A stretch of 40,968 nt of DNA from a virus. Of the stretch, positions 776-19,759 are shown piece after piece. The stretch covers positions 1 through 40,968 of IMG/VR virus record IMGVR_UViG_3300042935_000194; one strand, 5' to 3'. The notes beneath the pieces were generated by a model. It worked only from the letters and a program-made list of their open reading frames with translations, had not been told where the DNA came from and did not search any database. The translations under genes and the position numbers were made by a program. Each line of letters begins with the position of its first letter. Position 1 is the stretch's first letter.

Positions 776-795
776 GCCCAACCGGTAAACCGGCC

Positions 796-821
796 AAGCC
801 CCCTTTCGGGGGCTTTTTTTT
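796..821 (+). terminator. Strong rho-independent terminator
   Basis: Perfect 8-bp stem AAGCCCCC (796-803) with GGGGGCTT (808-815), loop TTTC, followed by an unbroken T run to 821. It lies 20 bases after the stop of the 134-775 gene and isolates that gene from the early operon. Confidence 0.92.
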
Positions 822-1469
822 CGTCAAAATTTTTTATCCAAAACTATCATCTACTATCACAACAAGCCCCACACCAAACTACTATCACGCGCGGCCCAGT
901 ATGCGACGATGTACGCGGTACGCATGTCGTATGAATGACGAATTTAATCCCGTGGGATTACCTAGAGTGTTGTAGATTGACAACTTTCCTTTAACCATGC
1001 GGGTTGCGACGTAAGTGAACGCTTTTTTAGATTACACGAAACTTACAAATCTAAATTAGTTTGCCTGTTGAATTGTACGTATGTTGTATGGATGAGCTAA
1101 GTTGTTGATTTTAAAGGCTTTTTTCGGGTAGCGGGCACTGGGGACTGGCATATATATATATAAATTAGTTAATTAGTTAATAGTTAGTAGTATTAGAGAG
1201 CAAAAGGTAAATTCCTGTAGCCTGTTCAAGTGTTTCGGCCCGTAACGTATGCAACCCCCCCAACTATTTACTCTCTAGCCTGAAAACCAAACTAATTGAC
1301 TAAAGTGAGCAAAATCAATGACTTACAATTTTTAGTCTGACTAATTTCCAAACTAATCCAACTATTGGGCTGACTAATTGCCAGAATCTACAAATCATCC
1401 ACACAACTTTCTCGATTATTTAACATCCAAATGTGTTGTTGTATGGGACTAATTTATACACCCCTTAAG
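822..1469. other. AT-rich non-coding region with ACTAATT/AATTAGT repeats, candidate replication origin
   Basis: No supportable gene lies between 776 and 1605. AATTAGT occurs at 1054, 1163 and 1171, and its reverse complement ACTAATT at 1291, 1340, 1373 and 1448, with a near copy ACTAATC at 1352. The two orientations therefore sit on opposite sides of a centre near 1200-1290. A TATATATATATA tract (about 1150-1161) lies beside the inner repeats. Oppositely oriented short repeats plus an AT-only tract are typical of phage and plasmid origins, but no initiator protein was recognised here. GTAC-GCG-GTAC at 911-921 is a further small inverted repeat. A regulatory or packaging role is an alternative. 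Confidence 0.4.
945..960. repeat. Regulatory palindrome, copy 2 (centre GT)
   Basis: Exact TAATCCC-GT-GGGATTA. It sits alone in the non-coding region, more than 600 bases from the next gene start. A TTGACA at 977-982 follows but no matching -10 was found. Confidence 0.85.
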
Positions 1470-1498
1470 TTGACAACAACACATTGACGTGGTACAAT
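1470..1498 (+). promoter_or_regulatory. Near-consensus sigma-70 promoter for the early operon
   Basis: TTGACA (1470-1475), 17-base spacer, TACAAT (1493-1498). This is one of the two best promoters in the window. The transcript would start near 1505 and cross the palindrome at 1554-1569 before the 1606 gene. Confidence 0.75.
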
Positions 1499-1553
1499 GT
1501 ACCCATCGAGTCAGAAAGCCCTCAAGCTATCCGATGCGATAAACGTCCTGTGC

Positions 1554-1569
1554 TAATCCCGCGGGATTA
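1554..1569. repeat. Regulatory palindrome, copy 3 (centre GC)
   Basis: Exact TAATCCCGCGGGATTA, a fully self-complementary 16-mer. It lies 55 bases downstream of the 1470-1498 promoter and 36 bases before the start codon at 1606, inside the transcribed leader. Confidence 0.88.
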
Positions 1570-1577
1570 ACTCCCTC

Positions 1578-1590
1578 ACTTATTTACGTA
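1578..1590 (+). promoter_or_regulatory. Early leader box, ACTTATTTACGTA
   Basis: A diverged copy of the leader box, eight bases after the palindrome and just before TGGAG and the ATG at 1606. The order palindrome, box, RBS, ATG is the same as at 4832, 5238, 6212 and 7538. Confidence 0.5.
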
Positions 1591-1605
1591 TCACTGGAGA
1601 TCATC

Positions 1606-10611: not shown

Positions 10612-10769
10612 TGCTTGCCGACTCGCAAGCAGAAGGCCGACTACTACGTCATCGATTAGATATTGTGTCTGAAGAAGCTCTACGTTTGCGTCAGAAGCTA
10701 GAACAGATTTACACTGTGGCTTACTTAGCTCTGGACAACAGAGAACTTGATAATATGGATATGAACTAA
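10572..10769 (+). CDS. Small coiled-coil protein upstream of DNA polymerase
   Basis: A 65-residue, Leu/Arg/Glu-rich helical protein (heptad-like ELELMLADSQ and LRLRQKLEQI). GAGG is nine bases upstream. Its TAA overlaps the polymerase ATG at 10769, so polymerase translation is probably coupled to it. Not recognised. Confidence 0.7.
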   Translation: MYRIPSDLSELELMLADSQAEGRLLRHRLDIVSEEALRLRQKLEQIYTVAYLALDNRELDNMDMN

Positions 10770-12604
10770 TGGACATACTCACTGTAGATATTGAGACGTA
10801 CTACGATGCACAATTCAGTTTGTCGAAGATGCAGACTGATGCGTACATTACCGACGAACGGTTTGAATTTATCGGAGTATGCGTTGCGAAGAACGACGAA
10901 GACCCTGTGTGGTTCAGTGGAACTGAAGCAGAGATTCTTGAGTGGGTGCACGTCAACTACGACTGGGCCAACTCAGCCGTAAGATGCCACAATACTTTGT
11001 TCGATGGCTACGCGCTGACACAAAGACTGGGTATACGACCGAGGCTATGGATGGACACGCTCCCCCAAAGCCGCATGCTCTACCCCTACTTAGTCTCTCA
11101 CTCACTTGCTAACTTAACCAAATTCTTCGGATTCCCTGACAAGGGTACTGAAGTTGTTAAAGCTCTAGGCAAACGCCGCAATGACTTTAATCCCACGGGA
11201 TTAGCGGAATACGGCGATTACTGCAAGCATGACACGTGGCTATGCCGTGCGATCGGTGAGAAGATGGACGCCTTCACTCCGCCATTAGAAGTTCGTTTGA
11301 TCGACATGACTGTGCGTATGTTCACAGAGCCCATGCTTGTGGGCGATGTTGCTGTGATGGATAGGCTATATCACGAAGAAGTTGCACGCAAAGAAGACCT
11401 GATGCGTTCGCTCATTGTCGGGAAGGACACGCTGATGTCCAACGACAAGTTTGCAGAACAGCTCGAGCTACTAGGTGTTAGCCCACCTAAGAAGATAAGC
11501 CCCGCAACAGGGCGTGAGACCTTTGCCTTTGCTAAAAGTGACAAGGGCTTTACTGACTTGCTCGACCACGAAGACTCAGGTGTTCAGGCACTGGTAGCCG
11601 CACGCCTTGGCGTCAAGACAACCATTGCAGAAACCCGTGCGCTCAAGTTCGTGGATACTGCAAAGCGTGGCCCCCTGCCGGTGTACCTCAACTTCTGGGG
11701 TGCTAAAACCACTGGCCGTTACTCGGGCGGCAACAGTATCAACTGGCAGAACATCCCCGCCCGTGGGCCGTCTGCGGGTTTGCGTAACGCCCTGCTTGCC
11801 CCTGCCGGACACACTGTGCTCGTAGGTGACTCATCCAACATTGAGCTTCGCACTGTGATGGCTTTGGCCGGACAGGATGATGTGGTAGAGAAGTTGGCCA
11901 ATGGCGTGGACTTGTACTGCGACTTTGCGTCCAAGCTCTTTGGCCGTGACATTACCAAGGCAGACAAGGCTGAGCGTTTCTTAGGCAAGACAGCCATGCT
12001 CGGGTTGCAGTACGGTGCCGGTGCTCCGCGCTTTCAGGAAATGGTTCGTATCGCAGCGCGTACTGATCCGGCTGTGAAAGCTATCGACCTCGATCGTGCG
12101 TACGACATCGTGAACCTATACCGCTCAGTACATCACAAGGTAGTTGACCTATGGGGTAGGTGTCAGCAAGTAATCCTGCCCGATATTGCCAATGGTTGTA
12201 GCCTGATGACTGTGGATGTCAACGGATGGTTTATCACGCAGAAGGATGGCTTCGGACGTCCGGGTGAGCCCGGTGTGATGTATCACGACCTGAAGTACGA
12301 CGGCAAAGAGTGGACATACTTAATGGGCAAACAACGTGTACGCATCTTTGGCCCGAAAGTTGTAGAAAATTTATCACAACATGCTGCAATGCGGATCGTT
12401 ATGTGGCAAACTGCACGTATCAACGAACGGTACCCCGTCAAGCTGTCAGTCCATGACGAAGCAGTCTGCGTAGTACCAAATGAAGAACTTACTCAAGCAC
12501 GCGCCTATATGGAAGAGTGCCTATCTCTAACACCCAAGTGGTGTCGGAGCATTCCCGTATCTTGTGAGACGGGTGTAGGCCCGTCGTATGGTGCGGCGAA
12601 ATAG
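10769..12604 (+). CDS. Family A DNA polymerase with 3'-5' exonuclease domain
   Basis: A 611-residue replicative polymerase. The exonuclease domain has DIET at residues 7-10, a motif-II Asp at 79 in HNTLFDGY and CKHD ending at 155. Polymerase motif A is GDSSNIELR at 353-361 (Asp354), motif B has R403, K407 and YG at 415-416, and motif C is HDE at 562-564. All expected catalytic residues of both domains are present. Length is typical of compact phage family A enzymes without a 5' nuclease. It heads the replication cluster. An intact palindrome copy lies in its coding sequence at residues 140-145. Confidence 0.95.
   Translation: MDILTVDIETYYDAQFSLSKMQTDAYITDERFEFIGVCVAKNDEDPVWFSGTEAEILEWVHVNYDWANSAVRCHNTLFDGYALTQRLGIRPRLWMDTLPQSRMLYPYLVSHSLANLTKFFGFPDKGTEVVKALGKRRNDFNPTGLAEYGDYCKHDTWLCRAIGEKMDAFTPPLEVRLIDMTVRMFTEPMLVGDVAVMDRLYHEEVARKEDLMRSLIVGKDTLMSNDKFAEQLELLGVSPPKKISPATGRETFAFAKSDKGFTDLLDHEDSGVQALVAARLGVKTTIAETRALKFVDTAKRGPLPVYLNFWGAKTTGRYSGGNSINWQNIPARGPSAGLRNALLAPAGHTVLVGDSSNIELRTVMALAGQDDVVEKLANGVDLYCDFASKLFGRDITKADKAERFLGKTAMLGLQYGAGAPRFQEMVRIAARTDPAVKAIDLDRAYDIVNLYRSVHHKVVDLWGRCQQVILPDIANGCSLMTVDVNGWFITQKDGFGRPGEPGVMYHDLKYDGKEWTYLMGKQRVRIFGPKVVENLSQHAAMRIVMWQTARINERYPVKLSVHDEAVCVVPNEELTQARAYMEECLSLTPKWCRSIPVSCETGVGPSYGAAK
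11188..11203. repeat. Regulatory palindrome, copy 10 (centre AC), inside DNA polymerase gene
   Basis: Exact TAATCCCACGGGATTA, read in frame as part of FNPTGLA between exonuclease motifs II and III. It is the only copy inside a coding sequence and the last in the window, about 3.7 kb beyond copy 9. Confidence 0.85.
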
Positions 12605-16515: not shown

Positions 16516-19482
16516 TTGGACACAAAAAACTTTTTTACTCGCGTATTCGCCCAAACAGACGAACTGGTTATTTGCATACATAAGCCTGATCCATCAGGAC
16601 AAAATCCAAGAGGCTTTTTTTGGAACCGTGGATCATTCGCAGACATCGATGATGCGATAGAAGCGATCAGTAGGTGGGATGCAGAAGCTGAGTCAACTGT
16701 TTACTTCGGTGTTGGTGCATTTGCCAATCACAGTTACGTAGAGAACGGTAAGCAGAAATGGTACCGCACACAAGCACATGCAACAGTGTTCAAAGCACTG
16801 GCGCTTGATTTAGATATTGGTGAGGACAAACCTTACGCTACTCAGAAGGAAGGTTGGATCGCAATGTCCGTCGCCCTCAAAGCGATTGGTATGCCTCAGC
16901 CTATGGTCATCTCTTCCGGTCGTGGTATTCACTGCTACTGGCCAATGACTCAGAACATTTCGAAAGAGCATTGGATAAAGGTTTCTACCGCGCTTCGCAT
17001 TGCGCTTGAAGAGCATGGTGTCGAGATCGACACAAGCAAAATTCATGATCCATCGATGGTGCTTCGTCCAGTTGGTACGCATCATAAAAAGCAACAGCCG
17101 TGGAAGTTGGTCGAGTGCAAACGTGATTGCCCTGACTACGATCCAGTAGAGTTGTTCACGGTATTGAAGCCGTGGTTTGGTAAGTTGCCAAAGAATGCAA
17201 AGACAACAGCATCACGCAAAGGTGCAAGATCATCGATCCTTGATGCAGTGCTCAACACAAACGATGTTGTACTTACCGCGGTCGCAGGGCGTTGTGCTCA
17301 GGTGGGTGCGCTTGTAGCTTCTGGTGGCGTGTTAGATGCCGCAGGTCGCAATGTAGAAGAACCTTTATGGCGTGCATCGTTAGGTCTTGCTAAGCATTGC
17401 ACAGATGTGCAGGAAGCGGTCATCATGATCGCAGGAACGCACCCTGACTTTGATCTAGCCGCAAGCATGGATAAGCTCAAGGGTTGGAACGGCACTGGGC
17501 CTACGACGTGTGCGAAGTTTGAGCAGTTGTGCGCTAAGGGCTGCGAAGGTTGCCCAAGCCGTGGAAAGATTACAAGCCCTGCGCAGTTGTCCGTTGTTAC
17601 TGAGACTGAAGTTGTTACTGAGGAAGGTGAAGAGTTCACATTCACAATGCCCAAGGGCTACGTCATTCAGAACAACCAGATAATGCGCGAGGTCAAGACC
17701 GAGATCACAACGACTGATGCAAACGGCAATGAAATTGCCCAAGAGGTGACAGAGTTTGACCACGTGTGCCAGTATGAGATTCACATCACTGGTGTGTACC
17801 ACGATTCTGAAAGTCGCAAGTCTGCATTCAAAATGATTGCAAAGTATCCAATGACTGGATGGAAAGAGACAGAGCATGAGATGTCTGTACTCGCGACGAT
17901 TGGTAAAGACTTTTCTACATTTTTATTGAACCAACAAATCTACGTAAAGAATGCTGGACAGCAAGAAAAAGTTAGGAGCTATTTGATGGATTACTTGACG
18001 ATGGTGCAACAACAGGCACCTACAGGATTGGACTTTGTTAACTTTGGTTGGCAAGAAGATGGCTCGTTCATGTGCGGGCAGACAGTGTTGGGCTCGCCTT
18101 CCGGTGCAACAGACACACGCCTTCGTGGCCCTGCATCTAACTTCGCTAAATTGATTGGCCCGCATGGTGAACGCTCTGAGTGGATTCGCGCGATGGATAT
18201 GCTGAACCTACCCGGTGCTGACAATATTCGTGCGTCAGTATTAACAGGCACAGTGGGAATCCTAGGCCCTGCCGCCGGTAACGCAACAGCAATTGTGTCG
18301 ATCTACTCTGATGAAACGACAACTGGTAAATCATTGTCTCTGATTGGCGTGAACAGTTTGATTGGTAATCCCAAGGATTTATTCCTGAGTCAGAAAGACA
18401 CCGCAAATGCCATGTATAAGATGCGCGGCGTACTTAACAACTTGCCATGTTGTATCGACGAGATGACTGCGGCTGACGACAAGGACATGGCTGACATGGG
18501 CTACACACTTAGCTCTGGACGCGAAAAGATTTCGATGACAAAAGAACGCGAGTTGCGTGAACCCGCTAAGTGGTGTGCTCCTACTCACGTCACGTCTAAC
18601 ATTTCGATGTACCGAAAGTTTGAAAACGCACAGGCAGGCAACGATCCGCTGAAAGCGCGTTGCTTAGAGTTCCCGCAACATGATCGGACTTTCGTTGCTA
18701 CCCGAGAAGATGGGCGTAGCTTTGGGTACGACTTTTTTGAGATCGTAGAGAAGCATAACGGTTGGGCTTTCCCAGAGCTTGTGCAAGTTGTAATTGACAA
18801 GGGCGGCCCCGAGGTCGTGTGGAAATGGGCTGAGGCATCGTTCAATAAAACGTTTGGTTTTATCTTTGAGCCGCAAGAGCGCTTTTACAGGACGCTACTT
18901 ATTGCATCATGGGGCATGGGTCGTATTGGCCAAGCCTTGGGTTTGTTCCCGTTCGATGTAAAAGCAACAGTGGACTTTATGATTGAGCGCGTCAAGCAAA
19001 CTAGGCAAGCTGCAATTGAAAGTAAGTCTGATGTGTTCGATACCATTGGTCAGTACATCATGGAGCACAACGATCGCCTTGTGCATTGCACCGAAGTTTA
19101 TAGCTCAGGTAAAGAGCAGGTAACTCAGCCCGCTCCAGATAAAGCTGTTGCTCGGGTAAAGGTTGTCTATGATGCCAAGAACCCTGTGATGCCCGGAAGC
19201 ATGATTGCGATCAACTTGGCTTTGTTCAAGGCATGGTTGGGTAGGTCGCAGGATGGTATTGACCGGATTGAGCGTGAGCTAGAACTTAACGGCGCGATGA
19301 TTGCCAAACGCGATCGGGTGACGATGTTCAAGGGATGCAAGGACAGAAGCCCCGGCCAGACGCATTGCCTGATTGTAAACCTGAACCACCCTCGGTTTGT
19401 AGCAACTCTGACTGGCACCATGTCCAGAGAGCAAAGCCCTGTACTACTGGCTGTTCTAAACGGCGTAGCTGTGGGACAATAA
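16516..19482 (+). CDS. Primase-helicase fusion: AEP-type primase plus DUF927-like helicase
   Basis: A 988-residue protein with a TTG start, six bases after AGGGG. The N-terminal primase has DLD at 98-100, SGRGIH at 134-139 and HDPSMVLRPVGTHHKK at 177-192, the three archaeo-eukaryotic primase motifs. A middle zinc-like cluster has Cys332, 339, 343 and 346. The C-terminal half has SDETTTGKS at 598-606 (Walker A) and CCIDEM at 645-650 (Walker B), as in DUF927 helicases. It should lay primers and unwind DNA for the family A polymerase. It lies directly downstream of a terminator, so it probably depends on read-through or an unseen promoter. Confidence 0.85.
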   Translation: MDTKNFFTRVFAQTDELVICIHKPDPSGQNPRGFFWNRGSFADIDDAIEAISRWDAEAESTVYFGVGAFANHSYVENGKQKWYRTQAHATVFKALALDLDIGEDKPYATQKEGWIAMSVALKAIGMPQPMVISSGRGIHCYWPMTQNISKEHWIKVSTALRIALEEHGVEIDTSKIHDPSMVLRPVGTHHKKQQPWKLVECKRDCPDYDPVELFTVLKPWFGKLPKNAKTTASRKGARSSILDAVLNTNDVVLTAVAGRCAQVGALVASGGVLDAAGRNVEEPLWRASLGLAKHCTDVQEAVIMIAGTHPDFDLAASMDKLKGWNGTGPTTCAKFEQLCAKGCEGCPSRGKITSPAQLSVVTETEVVTEEGEEFTFTMPKGYVIQNNQIMREVKTEITTTDANGNEIAQEVTEFDHVCQYEIHITGVYHDSESRKSAFKMIAKYPMTGWKETEHEMSVLATIGKDFSTFLLNQQIYVKNAGQQEKVRSYLMDYLTMVQQQAPTGLDFVNFGWQEDGSFMCGQTVLGSPSGATDTRLRGPASNFAKLIGPHGERSEWIRAMDMLNLPGADNIRASVLTGTVGILGPAAGNATAIVSIYSDETTTGKSLSLIGVNSLIGNPKDLFLSQKDTANAMYKMRGVLNNLPCCIDEMTAADDKDMADMGYTLSSGREKISMTKERELREPAKWCAPTHVTSNISMYRKFENAQAGNDPLKARCLEFPQHDRTFVATREDGRSFGYDFFEIVEKHNGWAFPELVQVVIDKGGPEVVWKWAEASFNKTFGFIFEPQERFYRTLLIASWGMGRIGQALGLFPFDVKATVDFMIERVKQTRQAAIESKSDVFDTIGQYIMEHNDRLVHCTEVYSSGKEQVTQPAPDKAVARVKVVYDAKNPVMPGSMIAINLALFKAWLGRSQDGIDRIERELELNGAMIAKRDRVTMFKGCKDRSPGQTHCLIVNLNHPRFVATLTGTMSREQSPVLLAVLNGVAVGQ

Positions 19483-19507: not shown

Positions 19508-19759
19508 ATGCCACGTGACTACAAGAAAGAGTACGCCAACTACCAAGGCAAGCCGGAGCAGATTGCTAACAGGGCTGACCGCAATTCAGCGCGTCGACAA
19601 ATGGAAAAGAAAGGCGTCGTCAGCAAAGGCGACGGCCTTGACGTTGATCACAAGAAGCCCATTGCAAAGGGCGGTGGAAATGGCGGAGGTAATCTCCGCG
19701 CAGTTCCTAAGTCTGCAAACCGTTCGTTTGCACGAACCCGTTCAGCAGGGATGAAGTAA
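19508..19759 (+). CDS. Small HNH endonuclease-like protein
   Basis: An 83-residue basic protein. DVDHKKPIAKGG places the HNH-type Asp47-His48, Asn62 follows in GNLRAVPKS, and Asn71 in ANRSF supplies the last metal-site residue. The N-terminal helix has RNSARRQMEKKG, typical of these compact phage HNH proteins. It may nick DNA in replication or packaging. It is the last + strand gene; its stop touches the stop of the converging gene. Confidence 0.8.
   Translation: MPRDYKKEYANYQGKPEQIANRADRNSARRQMEKKGVVSKGDGLDVDHKKPIAKGGGNGGGNLRAVPKSANRSFARTRSAGMK

Follow-up and report, generated by a model that had tools for sequence, protein, structure and literature searches.

A putative two-sided iteron origin of replication at the head of the early genes of a tailed phage

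The window, by which we mean the whole stretch of DNA analyzed (an open virus record of 40,968 bases), represents part of a tailed-phage genome of about 60 kb; a relative, G001, is closed by a 127-base end repeat to give 60,852 bases. Early genes of the window lie on the plus strand up to 20 kb and late genes on the minus strand, and the early-gene products include a family A polymerase, a nuclease, an SNF2-type helicase and a primase-helicase. The region considered here separates the upstream gene from the first early gene (Table 1). According to an earlier note on this DNA, it is non-coding and stands at the head of the early genes, and this agrees with our analysis: the gap 821–1605 contains no open reading frame of at least 50 amino acids, the early operon comes next, and the terminator and the sigma-70 promoter, whose positions give the candidate origin the same place, bracket the repeat region in an arrangement conserved in related contigs. 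Between the terminator and the first palindrome, at 830–940, there are CTACTATCA repeats and GACGTATG-like repeats, which are retained in the relatives in varying number.

Table 1. Coordinates of the features of the candidate origin region and of related genes in the window.
Feature	Position	Strand	Remarks
Non-coding region with candidate origin	776–1605		From the stop of the upstream gene to the first early gene
Intrinsic terminator	796–815	+	Ends the upstream gene (134–775); conserved in the alignment
Palindrome TAATCCCGTGGGATTA, left edge	945–960		16 bp; probably a separate regulatory element
AATTAGT, outer left	1054–1060	-	Exact in 5/15 aligned sequences
Left core site GCTAAGTTGTTGATTTTAAAGG	1096–1117	+	Column identity 1.00 over 15 sequences
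AT-rich patch, candidate unwinding element	1150–1189		90% A+T over 40 bases
AATTAGT, inner left	1163–1169	-	At most 1 mismatch in 15/15
AATTAGT, inner left	1171–1177	-	At most 1 mismatch in 14/15
ACTAATT	1291–1297	+	Exact in 15/15
Right core site, TAAGTCATTGATT on the minus strand	1306–1327	-	Diverged; faces the left core, 195-base gap
ACTAATT	1340–1346	+	Exact in 15/15
Degenerate ACTAATC	1352–1358	+	At most 1 mismatch in 12/15
ACTAATT	1373–1379	+	At most 1 mismatch in 13/15
ACTAATT, directly upstream of the promoter	1448–1454	+	Exact in 8/15, gapped in 7/15
Sigma-70 promoter TTGACA-17-TACAAT	1470–1498	+	11/12 matches, TG before the second hexamer; conserved in the alignment; faces the early genes
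Palindrome TAATCCCGCGGGATTA, right edge	1554–1569		16 bp; 52 bases before the first early start codon
Family A DNA polymerase	10769–12604	+	Early gene
Primase-like N half and SaPI-Rep/Cch-like initiator helicase, winged-helix-like C-terminal end	16516–19482	+	988 aa; proposed iteron binder

Fifteen contigs were found to encode a relative of the downstream gene and 21 a relative of the upstream gene. The gap was aligned between the window and 15 relatives; the counts of repeat conservation refer to 15 sequences, namely the window and 14 relatives, the truncated L019 being omitted. The downstream gene itself (1606–2370) was rejected as an initiator, as its PHROG match is weak and its model (pLDDT 54.6) is too poor for use; relatives of this gene occur only in the window family and in L039–L041.

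The seven heptamers claimed in the earlier note, AATTAGT on the left facing ACTAATT on the right, are all present as exact copies, and the tract said to adjoin the inner repeats is a TA tract at 1150–1162. The window holds 12 heptamer copies (5.26 expected), seven of them within 401 bases; for the 785 bases of the gap 0.26 copies are expected, and none of 5000 dinucleotide shuffles reached seven. In a look-elsewhere check, the commonest 7-mer of any kind occurred at least seven times in 1 of 2000 shuffles. Further degenerate copies not listed before are ACTAATC at 1352, ACTATT at 1263 and 1361, and AATAGT at 1179. The right-hand copies are the firmest, and the left-hand ones are degenerate in the relatives; a lack of conservation, which had been named as evidence against an origin, is thus not what the 15 sequences present, with strict retention on the right side and loose retention on the left. 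The motif ACTAWT occurs 7–12 times per region in the 15 sequences, against shuffle means of 1.2–1.7, and in L020 the RACTAWTT units form a run with a spacing of about 10–12 bases, as judged by eye. The distant L039, L040 and L041 have few repeats (4, 4 and 3, against shuffle means of 1.1–1.6).

The most conserved piece of the region is not a heptamer; it is the 22-mer GCTAAGTTGTTGATTTTAAAGG, which was absent from the earlier note. The left core on the minus strand (AATCAACAACTTA) and the right core on the plus strand (AATCAATGACTTA) fit WATCAANNNNTTR, given as the conventional IHF consensus in a review on oriC (PMC10380432), where IHF is also described as limited to phyla such as the proteobacteria. 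The named hosts of the phages and plasmids read are mostly proteobacteria, and with this fit and this distribution IHF is the obvious candidate for the host bending protein. Conservation of the core extends over 20–22 bases with the NNNN part included, which exceeds what the IHF consensus demands and leaves room for a factor other than IHF. Perfect DnaA boxes (TTATNCACA) are absent from the window region, and one lies beside the left core in three relatives only; a DnaA-dependent origin was therefore rejected, since the boxes are not conserved.

The 22-mer has exact matches at 31 places in viral contigs; 16 of these are outside the close family and differ in their flanks. Among 84,980 bacterial and archaeal genomes a single exact match was found. 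A relaxed scan, in which any letter was allowed at the four central positions and the first two positions were less strictly defined, gave at least 120 stretches, of which 80 were listed and 75 new loci were read. Among these listed matches the 75 loci hold 84 sites, of which 82 are non-redundant; the commonest centers are GTCA (17) and GTCC (13), and 3 of the 84 sites fall inside an open reading frame of at least 100 amino acids. As the pattern of the scan fixes the flanks, these sites give no measure of flank variability. The core is further present in non-coding DNA of named phages and beside plasmid replication genes: its distance from rep is 174 bp in pBBR1 and 290 bp in the iteron plasmid pND6-2, where AT-rich DNA adjoins it on one side and a run of AAGGTGAA repeats on the other. 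Only two of the nine plasmid places read have the core within 300 bp of a rep gene. Some phage copies stand by tRNA-like sequence or near terminase genes, so that the core is a mark of regulatory DNA in mobile elements generally, and not of origins alone. In L239, L241, L267 and L271 the cores adjoin, by eye, the apparent 3' end of a tRNA sequence, as at phage attachment sites. The small ssDNA phage RodF1_85, a microvirus, carries two direct cores 47 bases apart with a hairpin-like repeat between them (L219:2951–3020), located between the pilot-protein and replication-initiator genes.

Queries of 30 bases also matched phages of Campylobacter, Listeria, Streptococcus and Synechococcus, and some of these matches are probably due to chance in AT-rich DNA. 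Three named relatives were read in part. In the 22.0 of 60.9 kb read of RHph_TM3_14A, a core with 19 of 21 letters lies in a non-coding gap at record position 19,759, and no 8-mer is repeated four times near it; the parts read of CRP-7 (17.1 of 58.1 kb) and Rollin (17.3 of 61.3 kb) hold no core. Among 13 records picked for the DUF927 protein or the core, two have the core, and the other 11, fragments of 20–50 kb, stop short of its expected place 15–17 kb upstream and are thus uninformative. In the accessible text of open-access PMC articles (preprints excluded), searches with the motif strings returned only unrelated papers or nothing.

Further cores within 300 bp were frequent around 95 non-redundant sites, with 11 facing, 13 back-to-back, 14 direct upstream and 17 direct downstream; reversed-sequence controls gave 0, 1, 1 and 2 in the same categories, so that the totals are 55 against 4. 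Facing pairs with a gap of 155–226 bp occur in the window family, L111, L113, L220 (Morganella phage Henu15), L266 and L288, and in each of these six lineages 8-mers peculiar to the phage run in both orientations, at the floor of the shuffle test. In L128, whose contig also encodes the primase-helicase family, TGTTCC stands at -39, -30, -20, +24, +33, +42 and +268 relative to the core and GGAACA at +292, +302 and +311, with a 92% AT stretch between the two repeat sets. The window, L111, L113 and L128 have proteins in common at 23–28% identity, and L111, L113 and L288 have a common large terminase; L266 has another terminase family, and no protein match to the window was found for L220 and L266 in the stretches compared. 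The kinship of the window, L111, L113, L128 and L288 points to one broad clade in which the repeats have been fully replaced (AACTAATT, AATGTTCT, ACGTAACA, TGTTCC and GTAGAACA) and the core has been kept. In the 8-mer test, for which sites with flanks of less than 350 bases (about five) were dropped, local repeats were found near 16 of 89 cores; the excess is modest against non-coding controls (8/113, Fisher p 0.027) and larger against random windows (4/170). The comparison with the non-coding controls is conservative, as these include windows adjoining a core (L111:2795).

The candidate initiator is the 988-amino-acid protein, which matches DUF927. In profile searches against the PDB it matched SCCmec Cch (5dgk, 3.7e-12) and SaPIBov1 Rep (8tch, 5.8e-5); the match to a LigD-type primase (0.092) is below significance. 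Its AlphaFold model is weak overall (pLDDT 55.7), and at this quality Foldseek ranks Cch and SaPIBov1 Rep first, VIA-align gives Z scores of 24.6 and 22.3 to them over residues 506–967 (next row 10.0), and fold and profile match together indicate that the element encodes its own Pri-Rep type initiator. In the model, residues 896–955 appear to follow a strand-helix-helix-strand-strand order, as in a winged helix. A DUF927 protein common to all phages with the core was considered and rejected: of 20 records, 1 has this protein and 4 have a family A polymerase, although most of these records are short fragments.

These comparisons establish what the region consists of, that it is conserved, that its architecture returns with different repeats in other phages, and to which proteins the initiator candidate is related. 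Judging from sequence, we consider it likely that the region is the theta-type, two-sided iteron replication origin of the phage. Our computational results support the proposal of a candidate replication origin made in the earlier note, which gains most from three points that the note did not use: the recurrence of this architecture with other repeats in further phages, the 22-mer beside plasmid repeats and the SaPI-Rep-like initiator gene. Early transcription from the promoter at 1470–1498 would yield the replication genes, including that of the 988-aa primase-helicase, whose C-terminal domain may bind the RACTAWTT iterons to the left and to the right. The two facing cores (1096–1117 and 1306–1327) would be occupied by a host protein that bends DNA, in all likelihood IHF, and the iteron sets would thereby be joined; the AT-rich patch would open, and two helicases would be loaded, with forks departing in both directions. 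Against an origin stand the position of the rep-like gene 15 kb downstream, the poorly kept left-hand repeats, the weak GC skew, the modest repeat excess over non-coding controls, the cores remote from replication genes, the lack of conserved DnaA boxes, and the absence of a core from the parts read of CRP-7 and Rollin. A skew switch elsewhere had been named beforehand as contrary evidence, but the cumulative minimum of the window lies at 2413, and that of G001 and of G002 is 1.3 kb to the right of the 22-mer, that of G003 5.7 kb; this gives weak support, as the curve forms no clean V and may simply track gene direction.

Several known systems offer parallels. The primase-helicase initiator of phage P4, the alpha protein, acts at ori1/crr on short repeats in both orientations, and by description the proposed origin has the same combination. 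In PICI/SaPI origins, as described in one study (PMC6092414), two iteron sets flank an AT-rich region and the origin lies directly 3' to rep. The candidate origin resembles this Pri-Rep-ori arrangement in its two iteron sets around an AT-rich region, the left set being degenerate in relatives, and in an initiator helicase of the SaPIBov1 Rep/SCCmec Cch kind joined to a primase-like half. Unlike it, the carrier is a tailed phage of about 60 kb, a pair of 22-mer cores is present, and the origin heads the early operon, 15 kb from the rep-like gene and not directly 3' to it; because of this distance we regard it as a PICI-like origin and not as a member of the group. With IHF-assisted origins (oriC, iteron plasmids) it has in common the fit of the core to the IHF consensus, and the placing of the core in pND6-2 between AT-rich DNA and iterons is a further likeness.

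The same elements might instead mark the start of packaging (a pac or cosB-like site), with the repeats as small-terminase sites and the core as an IHF site, much as cosB of phage lambda combines R sites with IHF; we consider this unlikely. To the left of the equivalent region there are terminase genes in L288 and L266, and homology places them there in L111 and L113 as well; in Vibrio phage 1271 about 200 bp separate the core and the small terminase gene, in Stenotrophomonas phage Salva it lies in the terminal repeat, and in Sphaerotilus phage R1 it is 35 bases from the end. By hand count, five of the eight contigs of at least 30 kb with the region (the window, itself an open fragment, L007, L008, L016 and L017) end 0.5–2.0 kb left of the core, and these ends may be genome ends or assembly breaks. 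However, the contig ends vary in place and fall outside the repeat array, plasmids without packaging have the core beside rep-linked repeats, and two facing arms around an AT-rich patch have the look of bidirectional origins.

An operator array, in which an activator or a repressor bound to the repeats controls the early promoter at 1470 and IHF gives this promoter its shape, is quite improbable in our estimation. It would account for the repeat at 1448 abutting the promoter, for the near-consensus promoter that follows the right arm here and, by eye, in L111, L113 and L288, and for core sites in other intergenic regions; yet the two-sided array covers 400 bp, the AT patch and the second core lie far upstream, no leftward promoter was found in 776–1606, and the copy at 1448 is missing in 7 of 15 sequences that retain the promoter. 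The dyad might also encode a structured plus-strand RNA, such as a replication primer or a regulatory RNA. Nested inverted repeats (1098–1112/1311–1325, 1165–1178/1290–1303 and 1194–1204/1267–1277) and a consensus fold of 15 sequences with 36 pairs, six of them changed on both sides and several changes preserving G-U, are compatible with such an RNA, and L017 folds better than its shuffles (z -3.63). The minus strand of L017 also scores -2.25, though, the RNA of the window itself folds no better than shuffles (z +1.00, minus strand +0.84), the outer stem is merely the two facing core sites, and no Rfam match was found; with a signal that is weak, strand-ambiguous and without an Rfam family, we rejected this explanation as very improbable.

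If the region is indeed the replication origin, the presence of a PICI-like origin and a SaPI-Rep-like protein in one tailed phage would connect the replication of phages with that of satellites. To our knowledge, most origins have yet to be mapped in tailed phages other than the model systems, and a near-constant 21-bp word with lineage-specific two-sided repeats offers a sequence-based way to find them. A wider proposal, possible but doubtful, is that the 21–22-bp core is an origin module common to the phages and plasmids of Gram-negative bacteria, with a specificity beyond that of an ordinary IHF site. A conserved, still unnamed host factor would read it, and distantly related or unrelated replicons would preserve the core nearly unchanged, with iterons and initiators turning over around it.

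The two 16-bp palindromes at the edges of the region belong to a series in the early genes. The palindrome TAATCCC(R)(Y)GGGATTA is exact at 945, 1554, 2368, 3437, 4792, 5201, 6168, 7497 and 11188, that is, nine times in the first 11.2 kb; with up to three mismatches there are 12 copies, against 0.28 expected. Searches of open-access PMC articles (preprints excluded) with the palindrome strings gave no match. Six of the nine copies lie 27–52 bases before an early start codon, and the palindrome probably serves the early genes as an operator or as an element of their mRNA. Each of the 12 close relatives searched has 8 or 9 copies, and 12 further records have 3–15 copies, the center being always AT in some of them among the matches listed.
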